NCBI RefSeq assembly: GCF_006094275.1
Contig: NZ_CP034412.1
Location: 2,108,001-2,172,000 of the forward strand
Direction: 5' to 3'
DNA: 64,000 nt
Source of the DNA: Glutamicibacter creatinolyticus
GTDB taxonomy: Bacteria > Actinomycetota > Actinomycetes > Actinomycetales > Micrococcaceae
Shown one piece after another: positions 19,243 through 24,852 of this stretch (within the stretch, counting starts at the first letter, position 1; each line of letters opens with the position of its first letter). The notes beneath the pieces were generated by a model that saw only the letters and a list, made by a program, of their open reading frames with translations, searched no databases and was not told the origin of the DNA. The translations under genes were made by a program, and so were the position numbers.

Positions 19243-19629
19243 CTACATCGCCAGCAGCACCGAGATGATGTTGCTCAGCGCCCAGGCGCCCAGCAGCGAC
19301 CACCCGATGGCGCCCAGCATCCGGGCGTGGGACACCGGCGCGGTGGTCTGGGGGTGCTGCTCGTGTCCGATGCGGTAGTACACGACGCTGGGCGCGGCGG
19401 TCTCGGTGAGCGCGTGCTCGTGCAGGGTGCTGCGCCGGGTGCCGTCGGCGGTGCTCCACACCAGGCAGGGCTGGCCCTCCAGGACGATCAGCTCGCACTC
19501 GGCCCGCCGCCATCTGCGCATCGAGCGCCTGGAAACCTGGGCGGCAAAGAGGAAGCCGAAGCAGGCGGCCAGCAGCAGCCAGCCGATCAACTCCAGTGCA
19601 GGTTGCAAGCTGCCCGACGCGTCGCCCAT
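19243..19629 (-). CDS. Small membrane protein of unknown function
   Basis: 128 residues from ATG 19629 (a GTG one codon upstream is possible). One hydrophobic helix lies near the N-terminus (about 10-30) and one at the C-terminus (about 105-127). Between them is a soluble loop with two Cys and a basic face (QVSRRSMRRWRRAECELIV). It resembles small two-helix proteins of Micrococcales, but I recognise no named family. It sits between the ABC operon and the nitrite reductase gene, 66 bases downstream of the latter on the same strand, so it could be the last gene of that operon. Confidence 0.55.
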   Translation of the reverse strand: MGDASGSLQPALELIGWLLLAACFGFLFAAQVSRRSMRRWRRAECELIVLEGQPCLVWSTADGTRRSTLHEHALTETAAPSVVYYRIGHEQHPQTTAPVSHARMLGAIGWSLLGAWALSNIISVLLAM

Positions 19630-19695
19630 CACCCCATGATAAGGGCAGCACCGTCCGGCCGGGGTGCTCCCGGTGATCGCCCAGCCCAGATGCAG

Positions 19696-22440
19696 CTAGC
19701 GGTTCTCCCCGGTGATCTCGAACAGGCCGTGGGCGCCGCGCTCACCGTCGGACATGTAGTGGGTGACAAACGGGTAGTGCCCGGCCTCCGGGAAGATCAG
19801 CTCGACGAAGCCGCCCTGGGCCGGGGCCAGGGCCAGCGCCTGGCTTCCGCCCTGCGGGTCCTGCCGGTGATCCAGCCGGTAGCCGCCTTCGAACCAGACG
19901 GTGTCGAACTGACCGCCGATGACATGGAAGGAGGAGGGACGGTTGGGTCCGGCATCCAGCAACCAGATCCGCACCCGTTCCCCGGCCCGGGCCTTGAGCG
20001 GCTGGTGCAGGTACTGGTTGGCGTAGCCGTTGAAGGCCACGATGTCCGGGGTGCCGGCCAGCAGCTTGTCCATGTCCACTTCCCCGCCCTGCGCGCCCAG
20101 GTAGAAGTCCGACTGGGTGAGCACAAAGCTCTTGTCCACCTGCGGCAGGTCATCGGGTTCGATGATCACCGTGCCAAACATGCCGTTGGCGATGTGGGCG
20201 CTCATTGGCGCGGTGCCGCAGTGGTACATCCAGATTCCCGCCTTGGTGGCGGTAAACCGGTAGGTCAGGCTCTGGCCGGGCGCGATGGTGCGCATCGGCT
20301 CATCCGGGGCCAGGGCACCGGCATGGAAGTCGATGGAATGGCCCATGCTGCCGTCGTTGTACAGGGTGATTTCAAACTTGTCCCCCACCCTGCCGTGCAG
20401 CACCGGGCCGGGCGCGGTGCCGTTGAAGGTCCACAGTTTTTGGGTGACCCCGGGGGCGACGGCGGCCTGCAGCTCACTGACGGTGAACCGGTGTCGGTGG
20501 GTGACCGGTTCGCCGGCGTCCTTCGCCAGCGGCTCCAGTGCGGCCTCGCGCGCGGTGAACCCGTCCTGCGGGGCGGCGTTGAAGTCCAGCTCGCTGGCCG
20601 CGTCGGGTGCTGCCGGGCCCTGGTCCTGAGGTTCGCGGCCCATCATGTGGTGGGAGCCGTCCTGGGCGGGCGCCTCGCCCTCGCCCGGGTCCTGCTGCTG
20701 CCCGGGACCGGCGGAGAACTGCCCGGTCGCCACAATCTCCAGGACCATTCCCATCTGCTTGTGCCCGACAATTGAGCACCAGCCGTCCACCGAAGCGCCA
20801 ACGACCCCGGCATCGACTTCCGCGCTTTGGCCCGGGGCCAGCCGCCCGCTGTCCTGCCCGGTGCCCAGCACCAGGTCGTGGGTCTGCTCGGCGTCGGTGT
20901 TCGTCAGCTCAATGATCAGGTGGGTGCCGGCCTGCACGTCGATGCGAGCCGGGAAGAAGCGCATGTCCTGGGCGGTGACCTGAACACGCTGCACCGGGGC
21001 GTCCACTTCCGCCGGGGACTGCTGCTGCCCGGCGGACGGGGCCGGTTCGCGCAGCCCGGCCGCGGCCGGATCCAGGGCCACCCCCAGGGCGATGGCCACC
21101 ACCACGGCCATGAACCCGGCCACCGCCTGGCCGGCGCGTTGCCCGGCCGGGCGTTCGCCTTCCGGGGCCCGCGGCCCGCGCGGACGCCCGGCGGCCGGCA
21201 GCGTCTTGGCCTGCTGCACCTGGGCCTTCACCTTCCGGTGGGTGCGCAGCGCGGCAAACAGCAGGGGCAGGAAGCTGGCCATGGCCACCAGGTAGAGCAC
21301 CGAACAAACCACACGCACCAGGGAGGAAACCGGCAGGGCGCACACCAGCAGGGCGGTGTTGGCCATCGACACCCGCCACGCCGCTCCCCGGTCAAACACC
21401 GTCGCGGTTTCCCGCACCGGCCGCGGCCCGCCGCCCAACGCCACCGGAATCAGGTAGGACAACGCCCCGAGCAGGACCTGGGCGGCAAAACCGGCCACCA
21501 GGTAGGGCGCCAGGGTGTCAAAGGCGCGCCCCATGGCCCGCCAGTCCGAGGTGGTCACGAGCCCCACCAGCATCCACACCAGCATGCCCACCCACCAGCA
21601 GACTGCGGCGAGCACCGAGAGCGTGGCGAAACTGCGCGGCGGCTTGTTGCGGGCCGCGTAGATGAACGGGGAAGCCAGCAGGCCCAGCCCCACCAGGTAT
21701 CCGGCCACCCCGGCGGCGGCCACCGGAAGCACACCGAACCCGGCCCCGGCCGCCGCGATCAGCACCGCCGCCAGCAGCACCGGCAGGCTGTGCCGCAGCC
21801 GGGCGGCGGCCTGCGGGGCGATGCGGGTGCGCAGCATGGTGGGCCACAAGGTGATCAGGGTGCCGGCCACGGTCAGCCCGACCCAGCCGAGCAGGTTCAC
21901 CAGCGCGTGCGCCAGGGTCAGCCGCTCATGCAGCGGGGAGGGCAGGCCGGTGGAGATCCAGGTGCCCAGCGCGGCGCCGATCGGCAAAAGCGCCGCGGCG
22001 GCCACATAGTAGCGCACACTGGCCCCATAGGGTGAGGGCAGCGCGCCGCGCAGCCGCCGGTACAGCCACACCCCGTGCCACAGTGCGGCCGCGGCGACCA
22101 GGCCCGCCCCACAGGCAGTGACCGGCCACCAGGCGCCAAGCACGCCGGTCATCACCACCACGGCCCCGGCGTTCAGCAGCAGCAGGCGCCGGGACTGCTG
22201 CCGCCGGGAGGCCTGGGTGACCGGCAGCTTGAGCAGGGCGGTGGCAAAATACTGGGACCAGACCAGGATGGCGTGGGACAGGGCGCCGAGCAGCAGCAGG
22301 TGAATCATTAGCCAGCGTGGGGCCGGCAGCTGGCGGTGGATCAGCGTGCTGAGCACCAGCAGGATCAGCCAGATCGCGGTGGGAAGATCCCGCAACGGCC
22401 AGAAACCCCGCCCCGGAACCTTGGCCGATGCCTCACTCAT
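19696..22440 (-). CDS. Membrane-fused copper nitrite reductase (NirK-type) with extra cupredoxin
   Basis: 914 residues from ATG 22440, with AAGGGA upstream. Residues 1 to about 410 hold roughly a dozen membrane helices. After a polar linker and one more helix (about 440-465), a cupredoxin domain spans about 490-590 with a blue-copper ligand set His521, Cys555, His560, Met563/565. A His/Met-rich linker leads to a two-domain NirK (about 645-914). Type 1 copper ligands are His701, Cys741, His749 and Met754. Type 2 ligands are His706, His740 and His894. The catalytic pair is Asp704 and His839. All residues needed to reduce nitrite to NO are therefore present. The extra cupredoxin could pass electrons internally; that is inference. 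The start overlaps the upstream gene by 8 bases. Confidence 0.88.
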   Translation of the reverse strand: MSEASAKVPGRGFWPLRDLPTAIWLILLVLSTLIHRQLPAPRWLMIHLLLLGALSHAILVWSQYFATALLKLPVTQASRRQQSRRLLLLNAGAVVVMTGVLGAWWPVTACGAGLVAAAALWHGVWLYRRLRGALPSPYGASVRYYVAAAALLPIGAALGTWISTGLPSPLHERLTLAHALVNLLGWVGLTVAGTLITLWPTMLRTRIAPQAAARLRHSLPVLLAAVLIAAAGAGFGVLPVAAAGVAGYLVGLGLLASPFIYAARNKPPRSFATLSVLAAVCWWVGMLVWMLVGLVTTSDWRAMGRAFDTLAPYLVAGFAAQVLLGALSYLIPVALGGGPRPVRETATVFDRGAAWRVSMANTALLVCALPVSSLVRVVCSVLYLVAMASFLPLLFAALRTHRKVKAQVQQAKTLPAAGRPRGPRAPEGERPAGQRAGQAVAGFMAVVVAIALGVALDPAAAGLREPAPSAGQQQSPAEVDAPVQRVQVTAQDMRFFPARIDVQAGTHLIIELTNTDAEQTHDLVLGTGQDSGRLAPGQSAEVDAGVVGASVDGWCSIVGHKQMGMVLEIVATGQFSAGPGQQQDPGEGEAPAQDGSHHMMGREPQDQGPAAPDAASELDFNAAPQDGFTAREAALEPLAKDAGEPVTHRHRFTVSELQAAVAPGVTQKLWTFNGTAPGPVLHGRVGDKFEITLYNDGSMGHSIDFHAGALAPDEPMRTIAPGQSLTYRFTATKAGIWMYHCGTAPMSAHIANGMFGTVIIEPDDLPQVDKSFVLTQSDFYLGAQGGEVDMDKLLAGTPDIVAFNGYANQYLHQPLKARAGERVRIWLLDAGPNRPSSFHVIGGQFDTVWFEGGYRLDHRQDPQGGSQALALAPAQGGFVELIFPEAGHYPFVTHYMSDGERGAHGLFEITGENR

Positions 22441-23704
22441 CACGTTTCCCTTCATGTTCTTCTCGGTTCCCGGCCCCGGCCCGGCCGGTCGAAGGGGCCG
22501 GAGCCATCCCGGGACGCAAGCCAATGGAATGCCCAGGCCTACCGCTAGGCACCGGCACGCTGCGTTTGGGCGTGTGCGCGGCGCCGCTACCCGGCGGCCA
22601 TGGCAGGGCACGCTCCCCCAGCAGCGCACTGGCCAGCGCCACCAGAACGAACAGCACCACCGCCACCACGTTCAACACCCCGCCAGCCTGCCACAGCAGC
22701 TCGTACCCCAGGCCGTCACCCAGCCACAGGCGCAGCACCAGTCCGGCGTGCAGCAGCACCGCGGGGACCCACATCAGTGCCCGATACGGCAGCTTGATGG
22801 CCAGTACCGCCGGCAGGATCGTGGGGGCGTGGGCCATGATCATGGACATCACGAAGCCCAGGAACACTCCGTGCACCACCGTGTCGTACGCCGCAACACT
22901 CACCGGGTACCCGAAACACCAGGTCACCGCGGCAACCAGCAACCAGAAGTATCCCGCCAGCAGGCACGCGGCCATGAAGCGCGGTGCCCCCTGGGCGTGT
23001 ATGGTGCGCCGGGCAACGTCCTGGCGCATGAGCCACAGCACCAGCAACGCCAGCGCCGCCCCGAACAGGACGGTGCCGGCCCAGACCCACAAGACGGAGG
23101 CCGCCGCGCAGCCCACCACGGCGCAGCACAACACCAGGGCCACCATCTCTGAGCGTGGGCCCAGATGCAGCCGGGCCAGTTCCACGCGCTCGCCGGCGAT
23201 GGTGATCACCAGAAAGCTGCACAGCCAGGGCAGGATCAGGGAGGTTTGCACGCCCGCCAGCCACAGCAGCGTCGCGGCCACCCCGGCCCCCGCCCCGAGC
23301 ATTTGGATCAGCACCGCCACCGCCCGTTGGCGTCGCCACAGCGGAACGTAGAGCGCCACGGTGGCCACCATGCCGGCCAGCAGCAGCGTGCCGGCAAGGA
23401 TCCGGGGCAGGGAAACCAGCAGGCCCAGCCCGCCCAGGGCGAGCAGCAAGGGGGCCAGGTAGCCCCAGGCCCTGCCCAGTGCCACGGCCCGCTCCAGGGC
23501 AATGAGGGCGCCGACGAATCCAAAGACCAAGACCATTCCGTGGGCCTGGCCCCAACTGGCGACGGGCAGCGGCGCATGCACATCCAGCAGGATCAACCCC
23601 GCATCCAATCCGGCCAGCAGGCACAGGCCCGCAGGGATCATCAGCAGCAGACGCCAGCGCCCGCTGCGGCGGATCGGGCCGGGCTTGCGCAACGGGTGGC
23701 TCAT
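22433..23704 (-). CDS. NnrS-like polytopic membrane protein
   Basis: 423 residues with about 12 hydrophobic helices and a polar C-terminal tail of about 55 residues. Histidines inside helices (GQAHGMVLVFGFVGALIAL; VVHGVFLGFVMSMIMAHAP) recall NnrS, a haem- and copper-containing membrane protein linked to nitric oxide tolerance in denitrifiers. Similarity is by pattern only. It is translationally coupled on both sides: its ATG overlaps the regulator stop (ATGA, 23701-23704) and its stop overlaps the nitrite reductase start. The context supports a role in NO handling or in maturing the reductase. Confidence 0.6.
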   Translation of the reverse strand: MSHPLRKPGPIRRSGRWRLLLMIPAGLCLLAGLDAGLILLDVHAPLPVASWGQAHGMVLVFGFVGALIALERAVALGRAWGYLAPLLLALGGLGLLVSLPRILAGTLLLAGMVATVALYVPLWRRQRAVAVLIQMLGAGAGVAATLLWLAGVQTSLILPWLCSFLVITIAGERVELARLHLGPRSEMVALVLCCAVVGCAAASVLWVWAGTVLFGAALALLVLWLMRQDVARRTIHAQGAPRFMAACLLAGYFWLLVAAVTWCFGYPVSVAAYDTVVHGVFLGFVMSMIMAHAPTILPAVLAIKLPYRALMWVPAVLLHAGLVLRLWLGDGLGYELLWQAGGVLNVVAVVLFVLVALASALLGERALPWPPGSGAAHTPKRSVPVPSGRPGHSIGLRPGMAPAPSTGRAGAGNREEHEGKRDE

Positions 23705-24405
23705 GAGTCACGGTCCTGCGCATCATCCAGGCGCAGCAGGCAGTACCCCGGGCCGGCAAACGGCGTGATCGCGGTGCTCTCGGCCGGGTGGGGGTCAGCC
23801 TCCTGGCCCAGCACCCCGCGCACGATGCCCAGGTGCACGTTGCACACCACCTCGGGGTGTTCGCGGGCGGCGCCCAGCAACGGGCAGGCCTGCAGCCTGA
23901 TCTGTCCGTCCGCCGCCTGGCTGGGGTCAAATCCCATGCGCCGCAGGACGGGCAGGACCCGCTGGGCCGCGCTGGCCTGAGGGTTCTCCAGGTCCTGGGT
24001 CGAGTCTGCGTGTTGTTCCCGGGCCAGTTCCCGGCCCCAGCTGGTGCCGGCCTCCAGGCCGGCGCTGACCGGGTCGGCGCTGCTGGCAGCGATCTGCCGG
24101 GCCAGCACCCTGGCCAGGGTGGCATAGGGGCTCTCGGGAGTCGGGGCGGGGGACCAGATCCAGGGCGGACGGCCGCGGCCGGTGACGGCGGCGGGTGTGC
24201 GCCGCACGTAGCCATCGCGCAACAGCGCCTCCAGCTGGGCGCGCACCGTGTTTTCATGCATACCGGCAGCTTGGGCCAGCTGCGGGATGCTCAGTGCCTC
24301 GTTTGCCTCCTGGAGCAGGTGCAGGATGAGTTCGCGGGAGGGGGAATGCATTCGGCCGGCGCCGCTGCGCCGGTTTTCCCGCGGACTGCGTGGCCGAGTC
24401 GTCAA
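23701..24405 (-). CDS. Winged-helix regulator with SufR-like C-terminal cysteines
   Basis: 234 residues if started at TTG 24405, which has GAGGGG 6 bases upstream. A GTG at 24456 and an internal ATG at 24351 are alternatives. Residues about 20-75 form a winged helix (ELILHLLQEANEALSIPQLAQAAGMHENTV is the region, split here by function into helix 1 and the recognition helix). The C-terminal half has Cys174, Cys188 and Cys222 in a setting (ACPLLGAAREHPEVVCNVH) that recalls SufR-type regulators, which hold an Fe-S cluster. Such a cluster would suit NO sensing next to a nitrite reductase. It is the first gene of the operon and may control itself and the divergent DUF2249 gene. The sensing role is inferred. 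Confidence 0.7.
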   Translation of the reverse strand: MTTRPRSPRENRRSGAGRMHSPSRELILHLLQEANEALSIPQLAQAAGMHENTVRAQLEALLRDGYVRRTPAAVTGRGRPPWIWSPAPTPESPYATLARVLARQIAASSADPVSAGLEAGTSWGRELAREQHADSTQDLENPQASAAQRVLPVLRRMGFDPSQAADGQIRLQACPLLGAAREHPEVVCNVHLGIVRGVLGQEADPHPAESTAITPFAGPGYCLLRLDDAQDRDS

Positions 24406-24477
24406 TGCTTTCCCCTCACCGTGCCGGTCTCCGTTGCCGAAACCGCTATTTTCCACTGAGTTAATTGTAATAAAATA

Positions 24478-24509
24478 GTGGCGGGCATGCCATGTGGCAT
24501 CCCCGCCAC
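24478..24509. promoter_or_regulatory. 32-bp near-perfect palindrome, candidate operator of the nitrite reductase locus
   Basis: The sequence reads GTGGCGGG, c, ATGCCA, tg, TGGCAT, c, CCCGCCAC. The outer 8-base arms and inner 6-base arms are exact complements, with a single C:C mismatch on each flank. It lies between the divergent regulator and DUF2249 genes and follows a TAAAAT at 24471-24476, so a transcript toward the DUF2249 gene would begin inside it. That placement fits a repressor operator. A 5'-UTR hairpin is the alternative. Confidence 0.7.
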
Positions 24510-24537
24510 CTGGCGGATCAGAGTGAAGGAGTCGGTG

Positions 24538-24852
24538 ATGGCCGAGAACATTGAAATCTCAGCAACCCGGGAAGAGGCGCTGAAGCAGACGGCGGCAGGC
24601 ACCTGCGCCTGCGGTGGGCATGACGAGCAGCTGCCGGTCCTGGATGTGCAGACGATTCCGCATGCGGTGCGCCACGCGGCAATTTTTGGCGCCCTGGGTT
24701 CACTGCGCAGCGGGTCGGGGCTGGTGCTCAGCGCAACACACAACCCGTTGCCGCTGCTCAGGCAGCTAGATGAGCGCCATCCGGGCGAATTCGAGGTCAG
24801 CTACCTGCAGCAGGGCCCGGAGGTTTTCAAGCTCAAGCTGGTGCGCAACTAG
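24538..24852 (+). CDS. DUF2249 domain protein with N-terminal CxCGGH motif
   Basis: 104 residues. ATG 24538 is preceded by AAGGAG at a 6-base spacing. An N-terminal motif Cys23-Ala-Cys25-Gly-Gly-His28 could bind a metal. The DUF2249 domain follows (LPVLDVQTIPHAVRHAAIF ... LVLSATHNPLPLLRQLDE). DUF2249 proteins are often encoded beside nitrite/nitric oxide metabolism and haem-protein genes. The gene is transcribed away from the regulator-NnrS-NirK operon and shares its palindromic control region, which points to a shared role in NO or nitrite stress. The biochemical function is not known. Confidence 0.82.
   Translation: MAENIEISATREEALKQTAAGTCACGGHDEQLPVLDVQTIPHAVRHAAIFGALGSLRSGSGLVLSATHNPLPLLRQLDERHPGEFEVSYLQQGPEVFKLKLVRN

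Follow-up and report, generated by a model that had tools for sequence, protein, structure and literature searches.

The window, a 64,000-nucleotide stretch of the Glutamicibacter creatinolyticus genome, carries a gene whose single open frame encodes a 914-residue protein composed of a polytopic membrane domain (MD), an extra cupredoxin and a copper nitrite reductase, NirK (Table 1). An alternative GTG start lies upstream in the same frame and would give a protein of 977 residues. Directly upstream is the gene for a second membrane protein, the upstream partner (UP). Because the ATG of the fusion gene at 22440 precedes the UP stop codon at 22433, the two coding regions share 8 bases, and their translation may be coupled. 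Neighbouring genes were compared over 113 loci (L031-L142 and the window), a set that includes short contigs, loci in which the MD is a gene of its own (solo loci) and at least two duplicates (L055 = L074, L056 = L125), so that the resulting counts are non-independent lower bounds. A small protein encoded downstream of the fusion, at 19243-19632 on the minus strand, has homologues in at least four further loci of this set (L065, L069, L070, L071), from Arthrobacter and Paeniglutamicibacter.

Table 1. Features of the fusion gene and its neighbours (positions in the window).
Feature	Positions	Strand	Basis
MD-cupredoxin-NirK fusion, 914 aa	19696..22440	-	Single open frame; homologous fusions
MD, residues 12-404, 12 predicted helices, threefold four-helix repeat	21229..22407	-	Hydropathy, charge pattern, repeat matches, invariant residues
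His47 codon, TM2, putative heme ligand	22300..22302	-	Invariant in 146/146
His178 codon, TM6, putative heme ligand	21907..21909	-	Invariant in 146/146; on first His of CcoN helix X HxH
Thirteenth helix, residues 438-456, anchor ahead of cupredoxin	21073..21129	-	Hydropathy, predicted topology
Extra cupredoxin, ~residues 475-575 (ends estimated), ligands H521/C555/H560/M565	20716..21018	-	Pfam, alignment
NirK core, residues 637-914	19699..20532	-	NCBIfam, PDB, alignment
UP, second 12-helix membrane protein, marginally NnrS-like	22433..23704	-	Homologue in at least 80/113 loci
Winged-helix regulator	23701..24456	-	PF09339 6.3e-8; homologue in at least 88/113 loci
Divergent DUF2249 protein	24478..24852	+	PF10006 7.4e-23; homologue in at least 83/113 loci

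Domain architecture and copper sites

The first-pass annotation had described a NirK joined to a polytopic membrane domain and an extra cupredoxin in one 914-residue protein, and the single frame and the domain matches confirm this. In Pfam, Cupredoxin_1 matches residues 480-543 (1.6e-9) and Cu-oxidase_3 residues 654-763 (4e-16); N-terminal to residue 470, and thus throughout the first 410 residues for which such a search had been proposed, there are two matches below cut-off and nothing else. The NCBIfam model for copper nitrite reductase, TIGR02376, matches residues 637-912 with an E-value of 1.2e-50, at 172.7 bits against a curated cut-off of 296.3 bits. The best solved relative is 1kbv (E 6e-49), named Major outer membrane protein PAN 1 in the PDB and which we take to be AniA of Neisseria. 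Hydropathy analysis yields 13 segments, 12 ahead of residue 402 and one at 438-456, in agreement with the roughly 12 helices and linker helix noted at first. Counts of Lys plus Arg alternate from loop to loop (2-9 for loops predicted inside, 0-2 for those predicted outside), which predicts the N-terminus to be inside and the cupredoxin and NirK to be outside.

The copper ligands were compared across 98 fused-length frames (>800 aa, the window protein among them). His521, Cys555 and His560 of the extra cupredoxin, the ligands assigned originally, are kept in 98/98 frames. The axial methionine had been placed at Met563, a residue present in only 77/98; Met565, found in all 98, is the axial ligand and completes the motif CX4HX4M, which is the one given for the cupredoxin of actinobacterial NirK in the accessible portion of PMC4770552. 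In the NirK core, residues H701, D704, H706, H740, C741, H749, H839 and H894 are present in 97/98 frames, the Asp704 and His839 noted earlier among them, and the sole frame that misses them (L119) has no NirK. With ligand roles presumed from AcNiR numbering, the window protein possesses the type-1 and type-2 Cu ligands and the catalytic Asp and His by which a NirK is recognized. The axial position of the core type-1 site, 754, is Met in 76/98 frames, including the window protein, and Leu in 21/98. Alignment removed no copper ligand and moved only the axial methionine of the extra cupredoxin, from Met563 to Met565. By reading, the separately encoded NirKs of loci L204 and L228 appear to carry Gln at the core axial position.

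This architecture has been published. Actinobacterial NirKs of ~900 residues, of the Propionibacterium acnes type, were described by Decleyre in 2016 with credit to earlier work, likewise with a 400-residue transmembrane domain, a CX4HX4M cupredoxin and NirK, and in the portion of that article available nothing essential differs from the window protein (PMC4770552). All the defining traits of the actinobacterial transmembrane NirK, a transmembrane domain of ~400 residues, the cupredoxin motif and NirK in one chain, are present here. The membrane domain was at that time said to be "of unknown function" (PMC4770552, available portion), and we recognized no later paper in the open-access literature that assigns it. 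What is new here is what the membrane domain looks like.

Distribution and evolution of the membrane domain

The MD is present in 48/296 genomes of the class. A scan of named genomes, from which the best 80 of 453 places were kept, found the nearest relatives among those 80 in Glutamicibacter, Arthrobacter and Paeniglutamicibacter (Micrococcaceae). In these 80 named actinobacterial loci (best 80 of 453), 79/81 MD frames also hold NirK, so the fusion is not the product of a sequencing error that merged two genes. Of the two exceptions, L099 covers the first half of a frame that is interrupted. The second, L119:2476-5139, comes from a metagenome-assembled genome and encodes MD and cupredoxin but stops short of NirK, for which this 11.7-kb locus gave no significant match; the protein would fit an MD-cupredoxin electron-transfer unit.

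Across 396 genomes of the phylum, the MD occurs in 35/44 of those that have NirK (E<=1e-40) and in 21/352 of the rest (Fisher 3e-27, uncorrected for ancestry); at four other NirK E-value thresholds the same table gives values between 4e-19 and 4e-28, the five thresholds having been picked after the table was seen and two 396-genome draws having been taken as one set. Nine of the 44 NirK genomes lack the MD. A quick tree groups the 98 fused-length MDs with 11 solo ones in a clade (support 98) that lies within the solo MDs, with seven changes of the fused/solo label. This pattern is most simply read as one fusion that was followed by several losses.

Outside the fused clade, in sister classes, the MD is a separate gene. 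We collected 51 solo loci, including genomes that carry two domains (G105, G531, G616), and in 7/51 a NirK-like gene adjoins the solo MD. The modules are arranged in several ways: a cupredoxin-NirK with a separate MD (L228, L215), a NirK-cupredoxin with a separate MD (L203, L207, L210), NirK, cupredoxin and MD as three genes (L232), and a NirK without cupredoxin beside a divergently encoded MD (L204). Across solo loci the cupredoxin is thus found at either end of NirK, as a gene of its own, or not at all. Multicopper oxidases with an N-terminal cupredoxin (L199:7097-8797 and L229:5060-6379) lie near two further solo MDs. At 42/51 solo loci neither a NirK nor a related multicopper oxidase is present in the stretch examined, some stretches stopping at contig ends. 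Among the neighbours that recur at the 51 loci, a winged-helix regulator related to that of the window is seen at 12, LuxR-type response regulators at 8, members of an Rrf2-type family at 6 and molybdoenzymes at 5, with each family named from one scanned representative.

The split arrangements bear on the possibility that the MD is a plain anchor that merely keeps NirK at the membrane. The predicted topology, in which NirK would lie outside, is what such an anchor would require, yet a single helix could serve this purpose and one is already in place ahead of the cupredoxin, at 438-456. Moreover, the split NirKs of L228 and L215 have a hydrophobic stretch ahead of their own cupredoxin, as read from the sequence and unscored. 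Solo forms of the MD, and the two invariant histidines described below, likewise argue against mere tethering, which we consider very unlikely.

Neighbours of the solo MDs also raise the possibility that the MD serves maturation or transport, delivering copper to the enzymes encoded nearby or moving nitrite or nitrate for them. Solo MDs are found beside narG-like, narJ, moeA and apparent narK genes (narK by reading only), and in L199 and L229 the neighbour is a different multicopper oxidase. However, no Cys or Met is conserved in 50 membrane domains, and such similarity as the MD shows points to oxidases; a role of this kind is distinctly improbable.

Invariant residues and internal repeat

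In an alignment of 48 MD homologues (A1), W43, H47, G52, G159, H178, G185, P200 and R356 are invariant. H47 and H178, in TM2 and TM6, are invariant in 146/146 membrane domains, a set that omits the partial solo domains L208, L222, L223 and L224 as well as L038, L099, L055 and L056, and both are predicted to lie on the outer side. None of the remaining histidines of the window MD is invariant among its homologues. H122 was considered as a mark of coupling to NirK and rejected because its distribution follows clade: it is present in 97/98 fused-length, 7/48 solo and 0/7 NirK-neighbouring solo domains.

The three thirds of the MD match each other at 94, 76 and 66%, compared with 7, 0.1 and 0.3% for reversed thirds, and a second run gave 89, 67 and 54% compared with at most 2.2%. 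The same repeat test returned one pair in CcoN, subunit I of cbb3 oxidases (37%), none in CtaD, NnrS or UP, and in a control family it returned one pair at 82% that spans 28 columns. Subunit I of heme-copper oxidases has 12 helices on a four-helix plan with threefold pseudosymmetry, a plan that the matching thirds of the MD would fit.

Similarity to respiratory oxidases

Profile searches of Pfam, NCBIfam and the PDB gave no family name for the MD and no credible PDB match. The commonest weak Pfam match among MD homologues is COX1 (PF00115), seen in 9/48 (best 1e-5) and in 2/36 more distant solo domains; the matches inspected singly (4 of 10 proteins) are all below the Pfam cut-off, and the window protein has no COX1 match up to E 1. 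In profile-profile alignment with hhalign, the MD (146 domains) matches CcoN (8 sequences) at 58% with a score of 43.7, and matches CtaD in the same register with a score of 31.2. Controls taken from the flanks, six other families of polytopic proteins with 2-11 sequences each, score 12.4-15.6, two further control clusters that proved to be CtaD and UP relatives score 18.6 and 27.6, and reversed profiles score 15.5-25.9. UP itself scores about as high as CcoN, at 42.3 (57%) over almost the whole length, and NorB and NnrS give no signal (NnrS 0.3%). The MD has a weak similarity to subunit I of cbb3 oxidases that stands above the controls. Homology between MD and UP is suggestive only and was not retained: besides the 57%, other runs gave 15% and 56% depending on input order, and UP lacks the threefold repeat.

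The profile alignment with CcoN pairs H178 with the first His of the HxH motif in helix X, a histidine that is a heme ligand in cbb3 oxidases. Taken alone, the first third of the MD pairs with helix II of CcoN and sets H47 against the His there, a match that at 8% is no stronger than a reversed control (6.6%) and carries no weight. The case for a heme is built on the invariance of H47 and H178. Heme-copper oxidase subunit I has six conserved histidines that bind a low-spin heme, a high-spin heme and CuB. This six-His set with its copper-site histidines is absent from the MD, where H47 and H178 are the only invariant histidines, and the MD is thus without the ligands that O2 and NO reductases usually have. 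It resembles CcoN in the 12 predicted helices, the apparent sequence repeat, the weak profile match and the position of H178, but differs in having two invariant histidines only, no CuB set and a coupling to cupredoxin and NirK. Judged by these features, the MD resembles a distant and reduced relative of the respiratory oxidases.

A possible role in handling NO

The main rival to an electron-transfer role is that the MD, in the manner proposed for NnrS-type proteins, binds, senses or conducts the NO produced by NirK. Like the MD, NnrS (PF05940) is a polytopic protein of denitrification loci. UP, whose H41, H264 and H278 are invariant in 47 rows, has no Pfam family of its own, with PF05940 marginal in 7/47 of its homologues (best 0.22), and is possibly a distant relative of both NnrS and the MD. 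The loci contain DUF2249, and one Agrobacterium NnrS gene adjoins a DUF2249 gene. A family with an Rrf2 regulator as its representative lies near 6/51 solo domains, and nitrate reductase delta and molybdoenzyme genes are found near others. The genome itself has one narG over cut-off and a single COX1-family gene, and so has no NorB by that test. Against this stand the lack of any profile similarity between the MD and NnrS and the two invariant histidines, too few for a CuB/FeB-type ligand set for NO reduction, and NO handling would leave the swaps of the cupredoxin unaccounted for. We regard it as unlikely. NnrS as the identity of the MD was rejected, given the 0.3% profile match and no PF05940 match in the genome, a search that also gave none in 14 control genomes and recovered two NnrS genes in pSymA; actinobacterial NnrS amounts to one weak match below cut-off among 149 genomes.

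A candidate electron inlet for NirK

The reading that we prefer, with a probability of roughly 0.45, is that the fusion is a nitrite reductase bound to the membrane and equipped with an electron inlet of its own, in which the MD would be a bis-His heme b domain that passes electrons from quinol via the cupredoxin to NirK. A single low-spin heme b would sit between TM2 and TM6, ligated by H47 and H178; the MD would oxidize menaquinol in the membrane, and electrons would run from the heme to the type-1 Cu of the extra cupredoxin and on to the type-1 and type-2 Cu of NirK, where nitrite would be reduced to NO outside the cell. The whole protein would work like a quinol:nitrite reductase. Consistent with this are the 146/146 invariance of H47 and H178, the repeat in thirds, the CcoN similarity with H178 on the HxH motif and the weak COX1 matches, as well as the varied gene arrangements of the three modules, the co-occurrence of MD and NirK and the clade of fused domains. 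Counting against it are the weakness of the oxidase link, with UP scoring like CcoN, control families that are small and one control repeat pair at 82%, the 42/51 solo loci with neither NirK nor a related multicopper oxidase, and the 9/44 NirK genomes without an MD. The first-pass annotation had offered tethering or transfer from quinol to the cupredoxin as alternatives; the invariant histidines, the H178 match, the topology and the gene arrangements lend indirect support to the second, and the first has become less likely.

The NirK of Hyphomicrobium denitrificans (HdNiR) presumably lacks a 12-helix domain, unlike the window protein. Its cupredoxin is N-terminal to NirK, as here, and in the hexameric enzyme about 24 A separate the copper of this domain from the core type-1 Cu (PMC7201279, available portion), a distance that also weighs against electron delivery through the cupredoxin. 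Another parallel to the proposed inlet is offered by the quinol-dependent NO reductase qNOR and the cupredoxin-bearing NORs eNOR and sNOR, which, according to the available portion of PMC8756737, combine a membrane oxidase fold with a quinol or cupredoxin partner. These enzymes reduce NO in the membrane subunit, whereas the catalytic site of the window protein is that of NirK, predicted outside. The electron supply of NirK in Gram-positive bacteria is unsettled (for Bacillus, see PMC3475470), and the MD may feed NirK with electrons from the membrane.

A more general and more tentative proposal is that the MD could be a so far undescribed branch of the heme-copper oxidase fold, with the O2/NO site lost and one bis-His heme b kept, that acts as a quinol:cupredoxin oxidoreductase. 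The fusion would then be a self-contained quinol:nitrite reductase, and the solo gene might serve other copper enzymes in Actinomycetota. With two invariant histidines, a candidate fold and split homologues, both the heme and quinol-driven nitrite reduction can be tested directly.

One solo locus, L031:3-6418, at first appeared to encode a NarI-MD fusion. This was rejected on codon-position GC, which shows that ~residues 1-260 overrun a gene in another frame. The solo MD of this locus lies downstream of a narG-like molybdopterin oxidoreductase gene and of narJ, which encodes a nitrate reductase delta subunit, with one more coding frame between narJ and the MD.
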